Source of the DNA: Myxococcales bacterium | GTDB lineage: Bacteria; Myxococcota_A; Polyangia; Polyangiales; Houyiibacteriaceae | Direction: 5' to 3' | DNA: 44,668 nt | Assembly (NCBI GenBank): GCA_029862185.1 | Contig: JAOTXX010000029.1 | Coordinates: 1-44,668 of the forward strand | Position numbers and translations under genes: made by a program | In this document: one piece after another, positions 21,501-41,550 of the stretch | Layout: each line of letters opens with the position of its first letter | Position numbering within the stretch: the first letter of the stretch is position 1 | The notes under the pieces: generated by a model | The model's database searches: none | Told to the model about the DNA's origin: nothing | Seen by the model: the letters and a program-made list of their open reading frames with translations, nothing else

Positions 21501-22568
21501 TCAGGTTCCTGCCATTCGGCGCTTTCGAGTCGCGTCCGCCAGGCCTTCGAGGACGGGCACGGTGACGTCCCAACTCATGCACGCATCCGTGATGCTCTGC
21601 CCGTATTGGAGCTCGGTGCCAGGCTTGTTGTCTTGACGCCCGCCGACCAGAAAGCTTTCCAGCATCACCCCGAACACCTTGGTGCTGCCTTCGGCGAGCT
21701 GTTGCCCAATCGCGATCGCGACGCCCGCCTGCTTCTCGTGGTCTTTCTGGCTATTGGCGTGACTACAGTCGACCATGATGCGACCTTCGAGCCCGGCCGC
21801 CTCGAGCATCTCCACCGTCGAGGCGACGTGCTCCGGCTCGTAGTTCGGCTTGCCGCCGCCGCCGCGCAAGATGACGTGGCAATCCAGATTGCCCTTGGTT
21901 GCAACGATGGCCGTCAGGCCTTGCTTGGTGACCGAAAGGAAATGATGCGGGTTCCGGGCCGCCTTCACCGCTTCGACGGCGATCAGCACCGTCCCTCGCG
22001 TCCCGTTCTTGAAGCCCACCGGCATCGACAGCCCGCTCGCCAGCTCGCGATGAACCTGGCTCTCGGTCGTTCGCGCGCCAATTGCTCCCCAGGACACCAG
22101 GTCCGCGACGAACTGCGGCGAAATCGGATCGAGGAACTCCGTCCCGCTCGGCAGGCCCAACTCCGCCAGCGCGCTCAGCAAGCCGCGTGATACGCGCAGT
22201 CCGTGGTTGATGTCGAAGCTTCCGTCGAGGTTGGGATCGTTGATCAGGCCCTTCCACCCGACGGTGGTGCGTGGCTTCTCGAAGTAGGTGCGCATGACGA
22301 TGAACAGATCTTTGACATGCTCATCGCGCAGCGCTTTGAGCCGCTGGGCGTACTCTAGCGCAGCGTCCGCGTCGTGAATGGAGCACGGGCCGACGACCAC
22401 GAGCAGTCGGTCATCCTTGCCGTGAACGATGTCGCTGATCTCTTGGCGCTCGGTCGCGATCCGCGTGATTGATTCTTCCCCGGGATGGATCTCTTCCATC
22501 AAGATGGCGGGCGGGATCAGAGGGCGAAGGTCGTCGATCCGGACGTCGTCGGTAGGCGGGCGAAACAT
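21501..22568 (-). CDS. aroG: 3-deoxy-7-phosphoheptulonate synthase, class I
   Basis: A 355-residue first enzyme of the shikimate pathway: PEP + erythrose 4-phosphate to DAHP. Family motifs are VVVGPCSIHD, MRTYFEKPRTTVGWKG, GARTTESQVHRELASG, PVGFKNGT, HVILRGG and DCSHANSQKDH, which include the metal and PEP ligands; the length matches AroF/G/H. Which aromatic amino acid inhibits it cannot be read reliably. The chosen start MFRPPTDDVRIDDLRPL has no clear Shine-Dalgarno sequence; a TGCTAGAAG box lies 10 nt before it. It is divergent from the BASS transporter, with only 18 nt between the chosen starts, and sits between the two paralogous lipoproteins. Confidence 0.95.
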   Translation of the reverse strand: MFRPPTDDVRIDDLRPLIPPAILMEEIHPGEESITRIATERQEISDIVHGKDDRLLVVVGPCSIHDADAALEYAQRLKALRDEHVKDLFIVMRTYFEKPRTTVGWKGLINDPNLDGSFDINHGLRVSRGLLSALAELGLPSGTEFLDPISPQFVADLVSWGAIGARTTESQVHRELASGLSMPVGFKNGTRGTVLIAVEAVKAARNPHHFLSVTKQGLTAIVATKGNLDCHVILRGGGGKPNYEPEHVASTVEMLEAAGLEGRIMVDCSHANSQKDHEKQAGVAIAIGQQLAEGSTKVFGVMLESFLVGGRQDNKPGTELQYGQSITDACMSWDVTVPVLEGLADATRKRRMAGT

Positions 22569-22586
22569 GAGATCGGGACTTCTAGC

Positions 22587-23585
22587 ATGGAAGCACGACG
22601 GCGTCTCGCTCGGCCCGCGCCCACGCATGCTGTGCTACATGGCGACCTCGTGGCTGCGTTCGTTCGGTTCTTTCCCCTTTGGGTCACCCTCGGCGGTGTC
22701 GCAGCGCTCATTTACCCGCCGGCCTTCGACTGGTTTCTCGAGTACGGGCTGATCACGCCGGGGCTGCAGATCATCATGCTCGGCATGGGGCTTACGCTCG
22801 AGCTTTCAGATTTCTCGCGCGTTTTTCGCTCCCCTGCGCCCATTGTTTGGGGAGTGCTCCTGCAGTACACGGTCATGCCGTTGCTCGGCTGGGGCGTGGG
22901 CTATCTGTTTCAACTTCCCACCGCGTTTGCCGTCGGCCTGGTGTTGGTCTGCTGCTGTCCGGGCGGAACGGCTTCCAATGTGATCGCTTACTTGGCCAAG
23001 GCCGACGTCGCGCTTTCCGTTTCGATGACCGCGTTCTCGACGATGCTCGCGGCTGCGTGCACGCCGCTGCTCACGACTTGGATCGTCGGCAGCCGAGTCG
23101 ACGTCGACGGCTGGGCCCTGTTTCTCAGCACCGCAAAGGTGGTCCTGCTTCCGGTTGCGCTAGGGCTTTTCATGCGACGCTACGTGCCGAAGCTCACCGA
23201 GAAGCTACTCCCCGTCGCACCAGCAGCTGCAGTGCTCATGATCGTTCTGATCGTGTCGGCAATACTCGGGGCGCGGAAGGATGCCGTGCTCGAATCCGGG
23301 CTGCAGTTGCTCGGCGCCGTGGTCACGGCGCATGCCTTTGGCTTCTTTCTCGGCTACCTGTTCGGCGGTCTCAGCGGGGGCTTTGGCACGGTCGCGCGGA
23401 CGACCTCGATCGAGGTCGGAATGCAGAACTCCGGCTTGGGTGCGGTCCTTGCGCAAGCCCACTTCGCCAACCCGCTCACCGTGATTCCAAGCGCGATCTC
23501 GGCGATTACCCATTGCATCATCGGTAGCGCGCTGGCCGCATTCTGGTCTCGACGCCCCACATCCGGCGAAATGGCCGGCCCTTAG
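22587..23585 (+). CDS. BASS-family transporter (bile acid:sodium symporter-like)
   Basis: A 332-residue inner-membrane protein with about nine hydrophobic helices. Typical features are FVRFFPLWVTLGGVAALIYP at the first helix, GLQIIMLGMGLTLELSDFSRV, VGLVLVCCCPGGTASNVIAYLAKADVALSVSMTA (the family signature around the sodium and substrate site) and RTTSIEVGMQNSGLGAVLA (second crossover). It should import an organic anion with sodium. The start is unresolved: ATG 22587 is used, but GTG at 22632 or 22650 would better match family N-termini and leave room for a divergent promoter. It lies next to DAHP synthase, so an aromatic or keto-acid substrate is conceivable. Confidence 0.88.
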   Translation: MEARRRLARPAPTHAVLHGDLVAAFVRFFPLWVTLGGVAALIYPPAFDWFLEYGLITPGLQIIMLGMGLTLELSDFSRVFRSPAPIVWGVLLQYTVMPLLGWGVGYLFQLPTAFAVGLVLVCCCPGGTASNVIAYLAKADVALSVSMTAFSTMLAAACTPLLTTWIVGSRVDVDGWALFLSTAKVVLLPVALGLFMRRYVPKLTEKLLPVAPAAAVLMIVLIVSAILGARKDAVLESGLQLLGAVVTAHAFGFFLGYLFGGLSGGFGTVARTTSIEVGMQNSGLGAVLAQAHFANPLTVIPSAISAITHCIIGSALAAFWSRRPTSGEMAGP

Positions 23586-35285: not shown

Positions 35286-35903
35286 CTACTTCTTCTGTCC
35301 GGCGAACTGATCGTCTTTGGTTTTGAACAGGACGTTGAAGGTGGTGAGGGAGCCGTAGCAGCCGGTGATGTACTGCTGGAGTTGGACCTTGTCTTCGTCG
35401 CTCAGGTTCTTATTGCCGTTGACCTTTTGTTCGAGGACGCGGAGCTTGTCTCGGACCATGACGATCTTCTTGAAGAAGACGTCGAGGGGGATGCGTTTTT
35501 CCTGGGTTCCCTCTTTGCCCGGGATGAGCACCAGCTCACCGTCGTTCCAGCGGTCCCCGAGCTCGACCTCACGGACGCCGAGCTCATCGAGGAGAACTTC
35601 GCGCAGAACTTGTCGAAAGGTTTCTTGATCCATGTCGATTCCAATCTCCGAGGGAATGATCGGCCGCGGTTTCGGCGCCGGTTCATCGCGATACATCCGC
35701 GGCACCCCAGCCGCGGGCTTTCGTTTGAGGGCCTGTTCCCAAGGGGTGTCTTTGGACTTGTGACTTGAACAGGTCGCCATGTCCTTGAGGGGCCAACGGC
35801 CCTGCCCAAGCCGGCAATCCCCTACCCAAGACCCGTCGGGCTCCTCGCGTTTGCGAGTGTACCAACCGCAGGTTCCGCACCGGCCTGAGAGGTCGCGGTC
35901 CAT
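35286..35903 (-). CDS. Cys-rich N-terminus plus coiled-coil protein, unknown function
   Basis: A 205-residue cytosolic protein starting MDRDLSGRCGTCGWYTRK. The N-terminal four-cysteine set (RCGTCGWY, GDCRLGQ, ATCSSH) could bind zinc. A Pro-rich link follows, then [20 protein letters not shown], and then a long helical region (FFKKIVMVRDKLRVLEQKVNGNKNLSDEDKVQLQQY) likely to be coiled coil. I cannot name a family. A TACCCT -10-like box ends 9 nt before the ATG. An upstream start at 35942 would add 13 Arg/Pro-rich residues and is less likely. Confidence 0.7.
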   Translation of the reverse strand: MDRDLSGRCGTCGWYTRKREEPDGSWVGDCRLGQGRWPLKDMATCSSHKSKDTPWEQALKRKPAAGVPRMYRDEPAPKPRPIIPSEIGIDMDQETFRQVLREVLLDELGVREVELGDRWNDGELVLIPGKEGTQEKRIPLDVFFKKIVMVRDKLRVLEQKVNGNKNLSDEDKVQLQQYITGCYGSLTTFNVLFKTKDDQFAGQKK

Positions 35904-35912
35904 CGAGGGCCG

Positions 35913-35918
35913 AGGGTA
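35913..35918 (-). promoter_or_regulatory. -10-like TACCCT before the Cys-rich gene
   Basis: The minus strand TACCCT ends 9 nt before the ATG at 35903. The same hexamer precedes lipoprotein 1. No -35 or Shine-Dalgarno is visible. Confidence 0.3.
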
Positions 35919-35937
35919 GGGCAGGCGCGGCCGCAGC

Positions 35938-35976
35938 GCCACCCCGTAGAGTCGATGCTGCGCATCGCCGACGGGG
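35938..35976 (-). repeat. REP-like 39-bp repeat, copy 1
   Basis: The minus strand has the core GGCGATGCGCAGCATCGAC, flanked by CCCCGT and ACGGGG. It matches 37697-37735 at 37 of 39 positions in opposite orientation. The outer CCCCGT/ACGGGG and inner GATGC/GCATC arms can fold into a hairpin. It covers an ATG at 35955, which argues against that start for the next gene. Confidence 0.75.
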
Positions 35977-35988
35977 CTTCGGCGCCGG

Positions 35989-35997
35989 TGCTACACT
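35989..35997 (+). promoter_or_regulatory. Extended -10-like TGCTACACT before the two-domain GGCT gene
   Basis: TGCTACACT ends 5 nt before the GTG at 36003, consistent with a leaderless transcript. No -35 is visible. Confidence 0.3.
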
Positions 35998-36002
35998 GCC
36001 GT

Positions 36003-36857
36003 GTGTTCTACTTTGCCTACGGGTCCAATCTTGATTTGCAGAACTGGAACCTTTGGTGCGCGAATAAGGGATTCGACGCGGATTCCATCGATCCCCTCGG
36101 CCCCGCATGGCTCCCCGATCACGAGCTGGTCTTCCACTACCAGTCCCGTCTTCGAAAGGGCGGCGCCCTCGACATTCGTCCGCGTCGCGGTGCGGTGATC
36201 CCCGGCGCGCTATTTCGAGTTCACGATTGGGAAGGGCTCGACGCGAAAGAAGGTGTGTTCGGACGGTACTACCGTCGAATCTCGGTTACCGCGTTGACCG
36301 ATGACGGGCGCGCTCATGCGGCAACCACCTATTGCGTGTGCGAGGAGCGTGTGGGCCCCTTCGTGCCTCCATCGCCGGCGTACCGCGAGATCGTCGCGCG
36401 CGGCCTTTCGCGTTTCGGGCACGGCCACGAAGCGTTTCTCGAGGCAGCCAGCAACACGCCCGCTTCGCCAATCCCCAGCGCGATTTTCACCTACGGCACC
36501 CTGATGAGCGGCGAGCGCAATCACGGATTGTTGGCTTCCCAGGTGCTTCGTGCGCACGGCTCCGCTCGGGTCGCCGATGCGGCGCTTCTCCAGATCGACT
36601 GGTATCCCGGGCTCGTGCTCAGCCAAGGGGGAACCGTGCACGGCGAGCTCTACGAGCTCGACGACGTTGCCGCAGCGCTCCAAGAGCTCGACTCCTACGA
36701 GGACTTCATGGGCTACGAAAGCCCGACCTCGCTGTATCGACGCTCCCTCATCAACGCGGTCACACCGAGCGGCTCAGCCCTCGCATGGACGTACGTCTTT
36801 CTGGGTGATGCAGGTCAGTTTCCCTTGATTCCATCGGGACGTTGGTCCGGTGCTTGA
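36003..36857 (+). CDS. Two-domain gamma-glutamylcyclotransferase-like protein
   Basis: A 284-residue protein made of two cyclotransferase-fold domains. Domain 1 (1-about 150) has FYFAYGSNLDLQNW and the catalytic-type Glu at about 83 (DAKEGVFGRYYRR), as in glutathione-type GGCT. Domain 2 (about 158-284) has IFTYGTLMSGERNH and Glu 233 in LDSYEDFMGYE, as in AIG2/GGACT proteins. Both keep the loop and the Glu, so both may be active. Such enzymes release 5-oxoproline from gamma-glutamyl amino acids or peptides. GTG at 36003 is chosen because the alternative ATG at 35955 lies in a repeat and adds residues before the first beta-strand. Confidence 0.8.
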   Translation: MFYFAYGSNLDLQNWNLWCANKGFDADSIDPLGPAWLPDHELVFHYQSRLRKGGALDIRPRRGAVIPGALFRVHDWEGLDAKEGVFGRYYRRISVTALTDDGRAHAATTYCVCEERVGPFVPPSPAYREIVARGLSRFGHGHEAFLEAASNTPASPIPSAIFTYGTLMSGERNHGLLASQVLRAHGSARVADAALLQIDWYPGLVLSQGGTVHGELYELDDVAAALQELDSYEDFMGYESPTSLYRRSLINAVTPSGSALAWTYVFLGDAGQFPLIPSGRWSGA

Positions 36858-36881
36858 CCCTTCGCCATGGAGTCGTAATAT
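36854..36881 (+). promoter_or_regulatory. Promoter TTGACC-16-TAATAT for the leader/pseudo-trpG unit
   Basis: TTGACC (36854-36859) and TAATAT (36876-36881) are 16 nt apart, the best sigma-70-like pair in the window. It overlaps the stop of the preceding gene, and the -10 ends 10 nt before the leader ATG at 36892, so the 5' UTR would be only a few bases. Confidence 0.65.
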
Positions 36882-36891
36882 GAGAGCTCAG

Positions 36892-36939
36892 ATGAACACT
36901 CACCGCGACATCCGCTACTTTTTTTGGTTCACCGACTGA
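36892..36939 (+). CDS. Aromatic leader peptide (attenuation control)
   Basis: A 15-codon ORF, MNTHRDIRYFFWFTD, with five consecutive aromatic codons TAC TTT TTT TGG TTC near its end. It is followed at once by antiterminator and terminator arms. By analogy with pheL and trpL leaders, ribosome stalling at these codons when charged Phe, Tyr or Trp tRNA is short would allow read-through into the next gene. An in-frame ATG at 36880 exists but overlaps the -10 box. A weak GAG lies 6 nt before the ATG; the message may be nearly leaderless. Confidence 0.75.
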   Translation: MNTHRDIRYFFWFTD

Positions 36940-36974
36940 GGTGGCCTGCGCGCGTTGTCGCTCAAAGGCCGCCT
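36939..36974 (+). promoter_or_regulatory. Antiterminator hairpin of the attenuator
   Basis: AGGTGGCCT (36939-36947) can pair over nine positions, one G-U, with AGGCCGCCT (36966-36974). The latter is also the left arm of the terminator, so the two hairpins exclude each other. The first arm begins at the leader stop codon and would be covered by a terminating ribosome. Confidence 0.6.
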
Positions 36975-36996
36975 TTCAGGGCGGCCTTCTTGGTTT
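36965..36996 (+). terminator. Attenuator terminator hairpin
   Basis: AAGGCCGCC (36965-36973) and GGCGGCCTT (36980-36988) form a 9-bp stem with loop TTTCAG, followed by CTTGGTTT, a modest U-tract. It lies 43 nt before the start of the TrpG-like gene. Confidence 0.7.
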
Positions 36997-37038
36997 AAAA
37001 ATCTGAAGCCGTCTTGGGAGGGGCTGGGAGCCCGACCG

Positions 37039-37683
37039 ATGGCACGGACAGATAGAAACCAAGCACAAGACCGACACTCTCAGATTCGAGCCCGAGCGCA
37101 CCGAAAGGCGACCGTCGTGCATGACGGCTCTGCTTTCCAGCTCGCGGCCGACCTGCGTGTCTATGGTTTCGACGTGGCTGAAGGGCCACTGCTCGCGTCC
37201 TCGGCCATGCAAGGCAACTTGGGCAGCCTCGCGGTGATCGCGACGCGTCCGGGTGCGACCCGAAGCGAGCGCATGCAGGATTGGACCCGCCAGCTCTGCT
37301 GGAACGGCGCGACGCTCCTTGCGGTTGGCGCGGCGATGGGCCCGGTCGCCGAGTTCTTCGGTACTCGGCGCACGGCACAGTCCGATGAACGGGTCAGCGG
37401 CCGTTTGGCCAACGTGGTCTGTGCCGAGGAAGGCCTCTTCACCGGCTTGCCCGAGAAGTTTCGGCTCGCGCTCCCGGCCGGCGACGGCTTCCCCGCGTCC
37501 GAGCTCAGCCCCGAGTTCCGAACAACCGCGCAGAGCCACGACGGCGAGCTCATCGGCGCCTCACATGTCTTCCGCCCGGTGCACCTACTGCACGCGGGAG
37601 CGATGGAGAGCGGCGAGGTGCGCTCGGTGGTTCTCAAGAAGTTGTTGCGGTTGGTGAGGGAGAACGGCGGCCGGGCTTTCTAG
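37039..37683 (+). CDS. TrpG-like glutamine amidotransferase fold, catalytic residues lost
   Basis: A 214-residue protein matching TrpG/PabA class I amidotransferases in order: HDGSAFQLAADLRVYGFDV (normally IDNYDSF), SLAVIATRPGATRSE (SPGPGTP strand), ATLLAVGAAMGPVAEFFG (ILGVCLGHQAIAEAFG), RVSGRLANV (HGK-S-I), GLFTGLPEKFR, DGELIGASHVFRPVHLLHAGAMES (GVQFHPES). The nucleophile Cys is Gly97, the YHSL patch is LALPAGDGF, and HPES is HAGAMES, so glutaminase activity is not expected. No TrpE-like partner is nearby. Start ATG 37039 has GGGAG 8 nt upstream. Its expression appears to be controlled by the aromatic leader. It could be a regulatory or structural pseudoenzyme; this is inference. Confidence 0.75.
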   Translation: MARTDRNQAQDRHSQIRARAHRKATVVHDGSAFQLAADLRVYGFDVAEGPLLASSAMQGNLGSLAVIATRPGATRSERMQDWTRQLCWNGATLLAVGAAMGPVAEFFGTRRTAQSDERVSGRLANVVCAEEGLFTGLPEKFRLALPAGDGFPASELSPEFRTTAQSHDGELIGASHVFRPVHLLHAGAMESGEVRSVVLKKLLRLVRENGGRAF

Positions 37684-40813: not shown

Positions 40814-41187
40814 GGCCGCCGAATCAGTAGCAGGCCGAGCGTTCGCCGAGAAGGCCGTCCTCCCCTCGAGAATCGGAGCGACAAGCCGGCGCAGGCCTGA
40901 CACAAAATGACAATTGGAAATGAACCGACAGCCAGATTGCAGTAATCCTTTTTCAACGGACGAAAGAACAGGTCCGTACAAGACGCGTTCCCGTGTCCTT
41001 GCGAGACCTTACGCCGATCGCCGGTGTTCTGGGGCGCCTAACGACTCGCAAGTGCGGTCCGAGGTCGGCGTGCGCTCGTGTACGCGCCGTGTTTGACGCG
41101 GTTGGGCTAAGCCGCTACTTCCGACGCCTGAAGCGGGGAATGTGGGTGTTCGTGGTGTACCCCGCGTTATCAACGGAGAGAATCACT
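40814..41187. other. Gene-free stretch between divergent genes
   Basis: Holds the divergent promoters of the membrane protein and the Ala-rich lipoprotein. The only pair I can suggest is TTGACG (41093-41098) and TACTTC (41116-41121), 17 nt apart, for the plus-strand gene. No other element was recognised. Confidence 0.4.
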
Positions 41188-41550
41188 ATGACCAAAAACA
41201 TTTTTCGATTGGGCCTGGTCCTCGCGCTTTGCGGGGCCATGACGGCTTGCAAGAAGGCACAAGAAGCCGCCGATGAGGCTGCGGCCGCAGCGGAACATGC
41301 GGCGCACGAAGCGGCGGAGGCTGCTGAAGCAGCTGGAGAAGCCGCCGGAGAAGCTGCTGAAGCAGCTGGAGAAGCCGCCGGAGAAGCTGCTGAAGCAGCT
41401 GGAGAAGCCGCAGCGGAGGCCGCAAAGGACGTCAAGGAAGCAGCCGCAGGCGCTGCCGAGGACACCAAAGCCGCCGCTGCTGACGCAAAGGAAGGCGCCG
41501 AAGCTGCCGCCGCTGACGCCAAGGCCGACCTGAAGAAGATGGCCGAGTAA
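41188..41550 (+). CDS. Ala/Glu-rich 11-mer repeat lipoprotein (LEA-like)
   Basis: A 120-residue protein: signal MTKNIFRLGLVLALCGAMTAC with the lipidated Cys at 21, then a mature part almost only Ala, Glu, Lys, Gly and Asp. It contains three 11-residue repeats AAEAAGEAAGE, followed by longer periods ending AAAADAKADLKKMAE. Eleven-residue amphipathic repeats are typical of LEA group 3 proteins and of apolipoprotein-like helices, so a lipid-bound or stress-protective helix at the envelope is plausible. CGGAGAG lies 7 nt before the ATG. A strong terminator follows. High expression is likely, given the clean ribosome site and terminator. Confidence 0.8.
   Translation: MTKNIFRLGLVLALCGAMTACKKAQEAADEAAAAAEHAAHEAAEAAEAAGEAAGEAAEAAGEAAGEAAEAAGEAAAEAAKDVKEAAAGAAEDTKAAAADAKEGAEAAAADAKADLKKMAE
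41320..41411 (+). repeat. Perfect 33-bp tandem repeat inside the Ala-rich gene
   Basis: Two exact 33-bp units (41320-41352, 41353-41385) and a 26-bp third unit (41386-41411). Each encodes 11 residues, so the frame is kept for any copy number. Exact identity suggests recent expansion by slippage or recombination. Confidence 0.9.

Follow-up and report, generated by a model that had tools for sequence, protein, structure and literature searches.

Amino-acid attenuators usually precede biosynthetic operons or tRNA synthetases. In the trp operons of Corynebacterium/Streptomyces and of Proteobacteria, attenuators with a gGCC-rGCy-GGCC triple have been reported (PMC1262725). In Sinorhizobium meliloti rnTrpL, the leader ORF starts at the 5' end of the transcript or close to it (PMC7298713). 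Here, we analysed a 44,668-nt stretch of DNA from a Myxococcales bacterium (hereafter, the window), in which a classical ribosome-mediated attenuator very likely controls the gene of a 214-aa TrpG-like protein, as judged, for the expression side, from the sequence.

Like the trp attenuators described earlier (PMC1262725), the locus combines a leader ORF, an overlapping anti-terminator and terminator with a GGCC-type triple, and a Trp codon near the stop codon. Unlike them, it employs mixed Tyr/Phe/Trp codons with one Trp, and in place of a biosynthetic operon it targets one TrpG-like gene whose product is catalytically dead. With rnTrpL/peTrpL of trpE(G) it shares a leader ORF predicted to lie at or near the transcript start and a target gene with a TrpG domain, whereas in S. 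meliloti an active fusion of TrpE and TrpG is targeted and control is by Trp codons (PMC7298713). Attenuators with the same core were also found at trpE(G) within the Myxococcota, with WW in G107 and WWW in G147, G155 and G198. These share with our locus GAGG[TC]GGC at or just past the stop codon, GGCCGCCT and a GGCGGCC right arm, and differ from it in their WW/WWW leaders and in the active fused anthranilate synthase located 3' of them; moreover, they belong to other families. The predicted RNA device in the window is of the trp type, because its core also precedes trpE(G) of Myxococcota and because trp attenuators of Actinobacteria have a GGCC-type triple. The original prediction had spoken of Phe/Trp-type attenuation; all parts of such a device are present, and its type can now be refined to mixed Tyr/Phe/Trp codons on a trp-type GGCC core. 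Thus, what is new here is the combination of mixed aromatic control codons with a single dead-TrpG target, while the attenuator design itself is classical.

The WW/WWW attenuators lie 5' of the trpE(G) ORF, i.e., before the fused anthranilate synthase, at L134, L131, L072 and L073 in several Myxococcota families. We found no published description of these leaders, and the open-access papers searched (most subscription journals lie outside this coverage) contained no description of attenuation in Myxococcota. A match of the leader pattern in G307 was discarded, as it is located inside a coding frame.

Rfam gave no match in the leader region at the gathering threshold. The Phe leader (RF01859) matched at full length and with a low score over 36891-36994 (21.2 bits versus a gathering threshold of 55). 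The leader resembles this pheL-pheA family in its Phe-rich peptide with overlapping hairpins; unlike its members, it scores below the gathering threshold and is therefore not counted among them. Further weak Rfam matches (RNAI, SorY and others) were set aside, as they probably reflect the terminator hairpin.

Architecture of the leader

The predicted TTGACC-16-TAATAT promoter is present at 36854..36881 on the forward (+) strand, with the -35 box TTGACC at 36854-36859, the -10 box TAATAT at 36876-36881 and a spacer of 16 nt. Its -35 box shares bases with the stop codon of the gamma-glutamylcyclotransferase-like gene that lies upstream. It is followed by an ORF of 15 codons, MNTHRDIRYFFWFTD*, that spans 36892..36939 (+) from its ATG at 36892 to the TGA stop codon at 36937-36939. 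The start codon lies 10 nt past the -10 box in the window and 8-11 nt behind it in 16/16 genomes, and the leader mRNA is therefore probably leaderless or nearly so. A promoter-like match by itself carries little weight, as one was found in the region and 2.6 were expected from shuffled sequence, i.e., not above chance. Thus, conservation was used as the test, and it is conservation that establishes the predicted leader as real, for which a single window is insufficient.

The control codons Tyr9-Phe10-Phe11-Trp12-Phe13 (36916..36930, +) were assigned from a table of codons numbered backwards from the stop codon and from a model of ribosome stalling. They correspond to the Tyr-Phe-Phe-Trp-Phe run originally noticed, which, like the ORF, is conserved in the genus; Phe11-Trp12 is invariant there. 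The single Trp codon and the mixed composition are unlike most attenuators, and we counted this against the attenuator reading.

Four RNA regions can be delineated around the stop codon. Region 1, the protector arm (36926..36933, +), pairs with region 2, AGGTGGCCT (36939..36947, +), which overlaps the leader stop codon. Region 2 in turn pairs with region 3, AGGCCGCCT (36966..36974, +), which is common to the anti-terminator and the terminator and forms the left arm of the latter. This pairing of the stop-codon arm, part of the original prediction, comprises 9/9 pairs in the window, including one G-U. The terminator hairpin formed by regions 3 and 4 (36965..36988, +) reads AAGGCCGCCT-TTCA-GGGCGGCCTT, with a loop of 4 nt, and is followed by a weak T-run (CTTGGTTTAA). 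The hairpin was thus correctly recognised, its stem being 10 bp instead of the 9 bp first given when the closing U-G is included. All 16 sequences of the genus keep the 10/10 pairs of the terminator and the 9/9 pairs of the 2:3 helix. In the window, the predicted energies are -8.0 kcal/mol for 1:2, -21.4 kcal/mol for 2:3 and -18.3 kcal/mol for 3:4; the comparison of 2:3 with 3:4 had been suggested as a check. Hence, anti-terminator and terminator are mutually exclusive and employ one common arm, as in a classical attenuator.

To relate these helices to the control codons, we folded the RNA at equilibrium while hiding all of it as far as 15 nt beyond the P-site codon (+15 footprint). In the window, the anti-terminator was the best fold when the A site held one of codons 9-12 (Tyr, Phe, Phe, Trp), and the terminator when it held one of codons 13-16 (codon 13 to the stop codon). 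The model is consistent with the attenuation mechanism; we do not take it as proof, because shifting the footprint by one base alters the outcome in the window and in several relatives. Equilibrium folding of the full RNA yielded the switch in some relatives and not in every one. Covariation within the helices is almost absent among the 16 genus sequences, as the helices hardly vary.

Conservation of the leader and alternative readings

A search for the downstream gene among 97 relatives detected it in 16 genomes out of the 19 in the genus (the genome of the window counted), the copies other than that of the window showing 59-87% identity. After the loci had been oriented and compared, the leader was found in all 16 gene-bearing genomes, and a covariance model of the leader gave one strong copy in each. 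The model found no copy in the three genus genomes without the gene, which are incomplete assemblies. Over 184 genomes of the order, it yielded one further clear match (E 1.4e-5) in a genome from another genus of the same family (G027), and two marginal ones (E 0.04-0.05) in G053 and G442. The former was rejected, being a plain terminator on reading, and the latter matches the model in its hairpin part alone. Apart from these two, the leader is limited to 17 gene-bearing genomes among the 184, and the same orthologous gene follows in all 17. Conservation of the leader codons alongside the gene had been set beforehand as the test by which the prediction could fall; it was observed in 16/16 genus genomes and, as one diverged copy, in G027. 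Furthermore, in every carrier the leader precedes the TrpG-like gene and not an aromatic biosynthesis operon, as first stated.

The 16/16 genus genomes keep the promoter as TTGAC[CG]-16/17-TAnnnT and the core of the peptide as Phe-Trp-Phe/Tyr. The pairing arms and the terminator reach a mean pairwise identity of 94-96% and the control-codon stretch one of 90%, as against 75% for the first leader codons and 36% for the bases immediately 5' of the start codon; fourfold sites of the downstream gene show a mean identity of 48%. Indels within the leader measure 3 or 6 nt and retain the frame; the ORF ends at the same point in 16/16 genus genomes and in G027, and within the genus the stop codon is never more than one base away from region 2. 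With the stop codon numbered -1, position -5 is Trp and position -6 is Phe in 16/16 genomes, with Phe or Tyr at -4 and -7. Judging from the sequences compared, this pattern is what attenuation predicts. The leader of G027 has diverged to MIRHDSARYYGWFTSF and precedes the orthologous gene. Its protector hairpin retains the pairing of regions 1 and 2 and is rebuilt from other bases (ACCTC with GAGGT), and one terminator pair is compensated (A-U to C-G).

The residues past Trp (F/Y, T/S, D) are also strongly conserved, and Asp and Thr are needless as aromatic control codons. Such conservation might point to an arrest peptide, in which the residues W-F/Y-T/S-D would stall the ribosome on a small molecule (free tryptophan) in the manner of TnaC and not in response to tRNA charging. 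However, this stretch doubles as RNA region 1, so base pairing accounts for its conservation. Phe and Tyr swap freely outside the invariant Phe-Trp, one leader does without one Phe codon, and the G027 copy reads RYYGWFTSF. Since the geometry of stop codon and region 2 also matches that of tRNA-charging attenuators, we consider an arrest peptide improbable.

The very strong conservation of the RNA and the predicted leaderless start, which resembles that of rnTrpL (PMC7298713), could alternatively indicate that the terminated leader RNA or its peptide is the main product and acts in trans, like rnTrpL/peTrpL of S. meliloti, with the downstream gene as a secondary target. This reading is unlikely, as conservation is centred where attenuation requires it while the first leader codons vary freely, and as neither the genus genomes nor the 184 genomes of the order yielded the element without the gene. 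That the hairpin, which follows the stop codon of the gamma-glutamylcyclotransferase-like gene at a distance of ~110 nt and would end that transcript too, is a plain terminator of this upstream gene next to an incidental small ORF or free small protein is highly improbable, as the conserved start, frame, aromatic codons and competing region 2 would have no role there and as the G027 leader precedes the orthologous gene in a 16-kb stretch that yielded no homologue of the upstream gene.

The downstream gene encodes a TrpG homologue lacking catalytic residues

The gene controlled by the putative attenuator (37039..37683, +) encodes a 214-aa homologue of TrpG/PabA-type class I glutamine amidotransferases without the catalytic Cys and Glu. 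Pfam gave no significant match for the product, and the curated cut-offs of Pfam GATase and of TrpG were not reached; NCBIfam yielded weak matches to TrpG/PabA (TIGR00566, NF005849) and TrpE(G) families. A profile of the family searched against the PDB matched a PabAB-type aminodeoxychorismate synthase and PabA (best E 1.8e-5), and hhalign aligned the family to true TrpG of related genomes with 1e-12 over 189 columns. The predicted structure, which is of low confidence (pLDDT 58), found GATases as its best Foldseek matches, including PabA and TrpG. By profile and fold similarity, the protein thus belongs to the class I glutamine amidotransferase superfamily; it is homologous to the TrpG/PabA glutaminase subunits over most of its length and shares their fold family.

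Unlike these glutaminases, the protein has Gly in place of the nucleophile Cys in the G-x-C-x-G motif, in 17/17 proteins. Of the His-x-Glu of the triad, His185 is kept in the genus and the Glu is replaced; in G027 the His appears to be replaced as well, as read from the alignment. Neither hallmark of an active TrpG/PabA glutaminase is therefore intact, and the protein is predicted to lack glutamine-hydrolysing activity. The label pseudo-TrpG, under which the gene was first noted, is borne out by the significant profile match to true TrpG, by PabA/TrpG among the nearest solved relatives and by the missing Cys and Glu. The median dN/dS between genus members is 0.175, by which measure the gene is under purifying selection and not decaying.

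A genuine TrpG is encoded elsewhere in 19/19 genomes (split over two contigs in one), along with chorismate-binding enzymes. No such leader was found upstream of the trpE and trpG loci examined, and a leader modelled on the control of the genome's own trpE/trpG was therefore dropped as an explanation. In a protein tree, the dead family is set apart on a very long branch, and the tree decides neither for a free TrpG nor for the TrpG domain of TrpE(G) as its source. Given this long branch, the attenuator may either have been inherited from a trpE(G) ancestor or have converged.

Model of regulation and possible role

From the observed anatomy and conservation, we infer the transcription start, termination, stalling and sensed signal as follows. 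The transcript would start just 5' of the leader ORF, which carries Tyr-Phe-Phe-Trp-Phe at the control position. When charged tRNAs for Trp and Phe (perhaps also Tyr) are plentiful, the ribosome would reach the stop codon and cover region 2, so that the 3:4 terminator could form and transcription would stop near 36990-36997. When these charged tRNAs are short, the ribosome would stall on codons 9-12 and hide region 1; regions 2 and 3 could then pair, no terminator would form and the 214-aa gene would be transcribed.

As to the role of the protein, we tentatively suggest that, when aromatic amino acids are short, it serves a chorismate-using enzyme, TrpE or PabB, as a non-catalytic partner or regulator. 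Conceivably, this dead TrpG paralogue, made through the attenuator only upon aromatic shortage, replaces active TrpG as the binding partner of TrpE or PabB, or recognises a ligand of the chorismate pathway, and in this way redirects the use of chorismate or ammonia. If true, it would represent a pseudo-enzyme regulator having its own amino-acid-charging switch. An attenuator tied to a conserved inactive TrpG relative, with the genuine trpE/trpG devoid of such a leader, suggests that pseudo-amidotransferases have a regulatory function in aromatic metabolism that has gone unrecognised.

Genomic surroundings

The upstream gene (35955-36857) encodes a two-domain gamma-glutamylcyclotransferase-like protein, and the gene order upstream is stable within the genus. 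Downstream, some members have an enoyl-CoA hydratase, G018 and G016 carry another gene at this place, and in G027 the neighbour is an acyl-CoA dehydrogenase. Because these neighbours differ between lineages, the predicted regulated unit is one gene, in agreement with the single small gene proposed at the outset. An enoyl-CoA hydratase as part of the unit was dropped, as the surroundings of the gene in G018, G016, G013, G014 and G027 yielded none, with runs of N in the region checked in G013 and G014. In G018 and G016, a terminator-like repeat (GGGGACTGTCCCCTTTT in L092, slightly different in L091) directly follows the stop codon of the dead-TrpG gene, supporting a single-gene transcript as the probable unit in that lineage.

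Elsewhere in the window, a gene for DAHP synthase, the first step of aromatic biosynthesis, is located at 21501-22628 (-), ~15 kb from the leader, and the two are also ~15 kb apart on one contig in G018 and G016. No leader was found in front of DAHP synthase in the window. A hypothetical gene at 35286-35942 (-) is divergent from the cyclotransferase gene in the window and close relatives and co-directional with it in G018, G016, G014 and G003; this change of orientation suggests a local inversion. Finally, 40993-41550 (+) encodes a small predicted protein with a possible lipoprotein signal, beyond which Ala/Glu/Gly repeats (EAAGEAAGEAAEAAGEAA) dominate.
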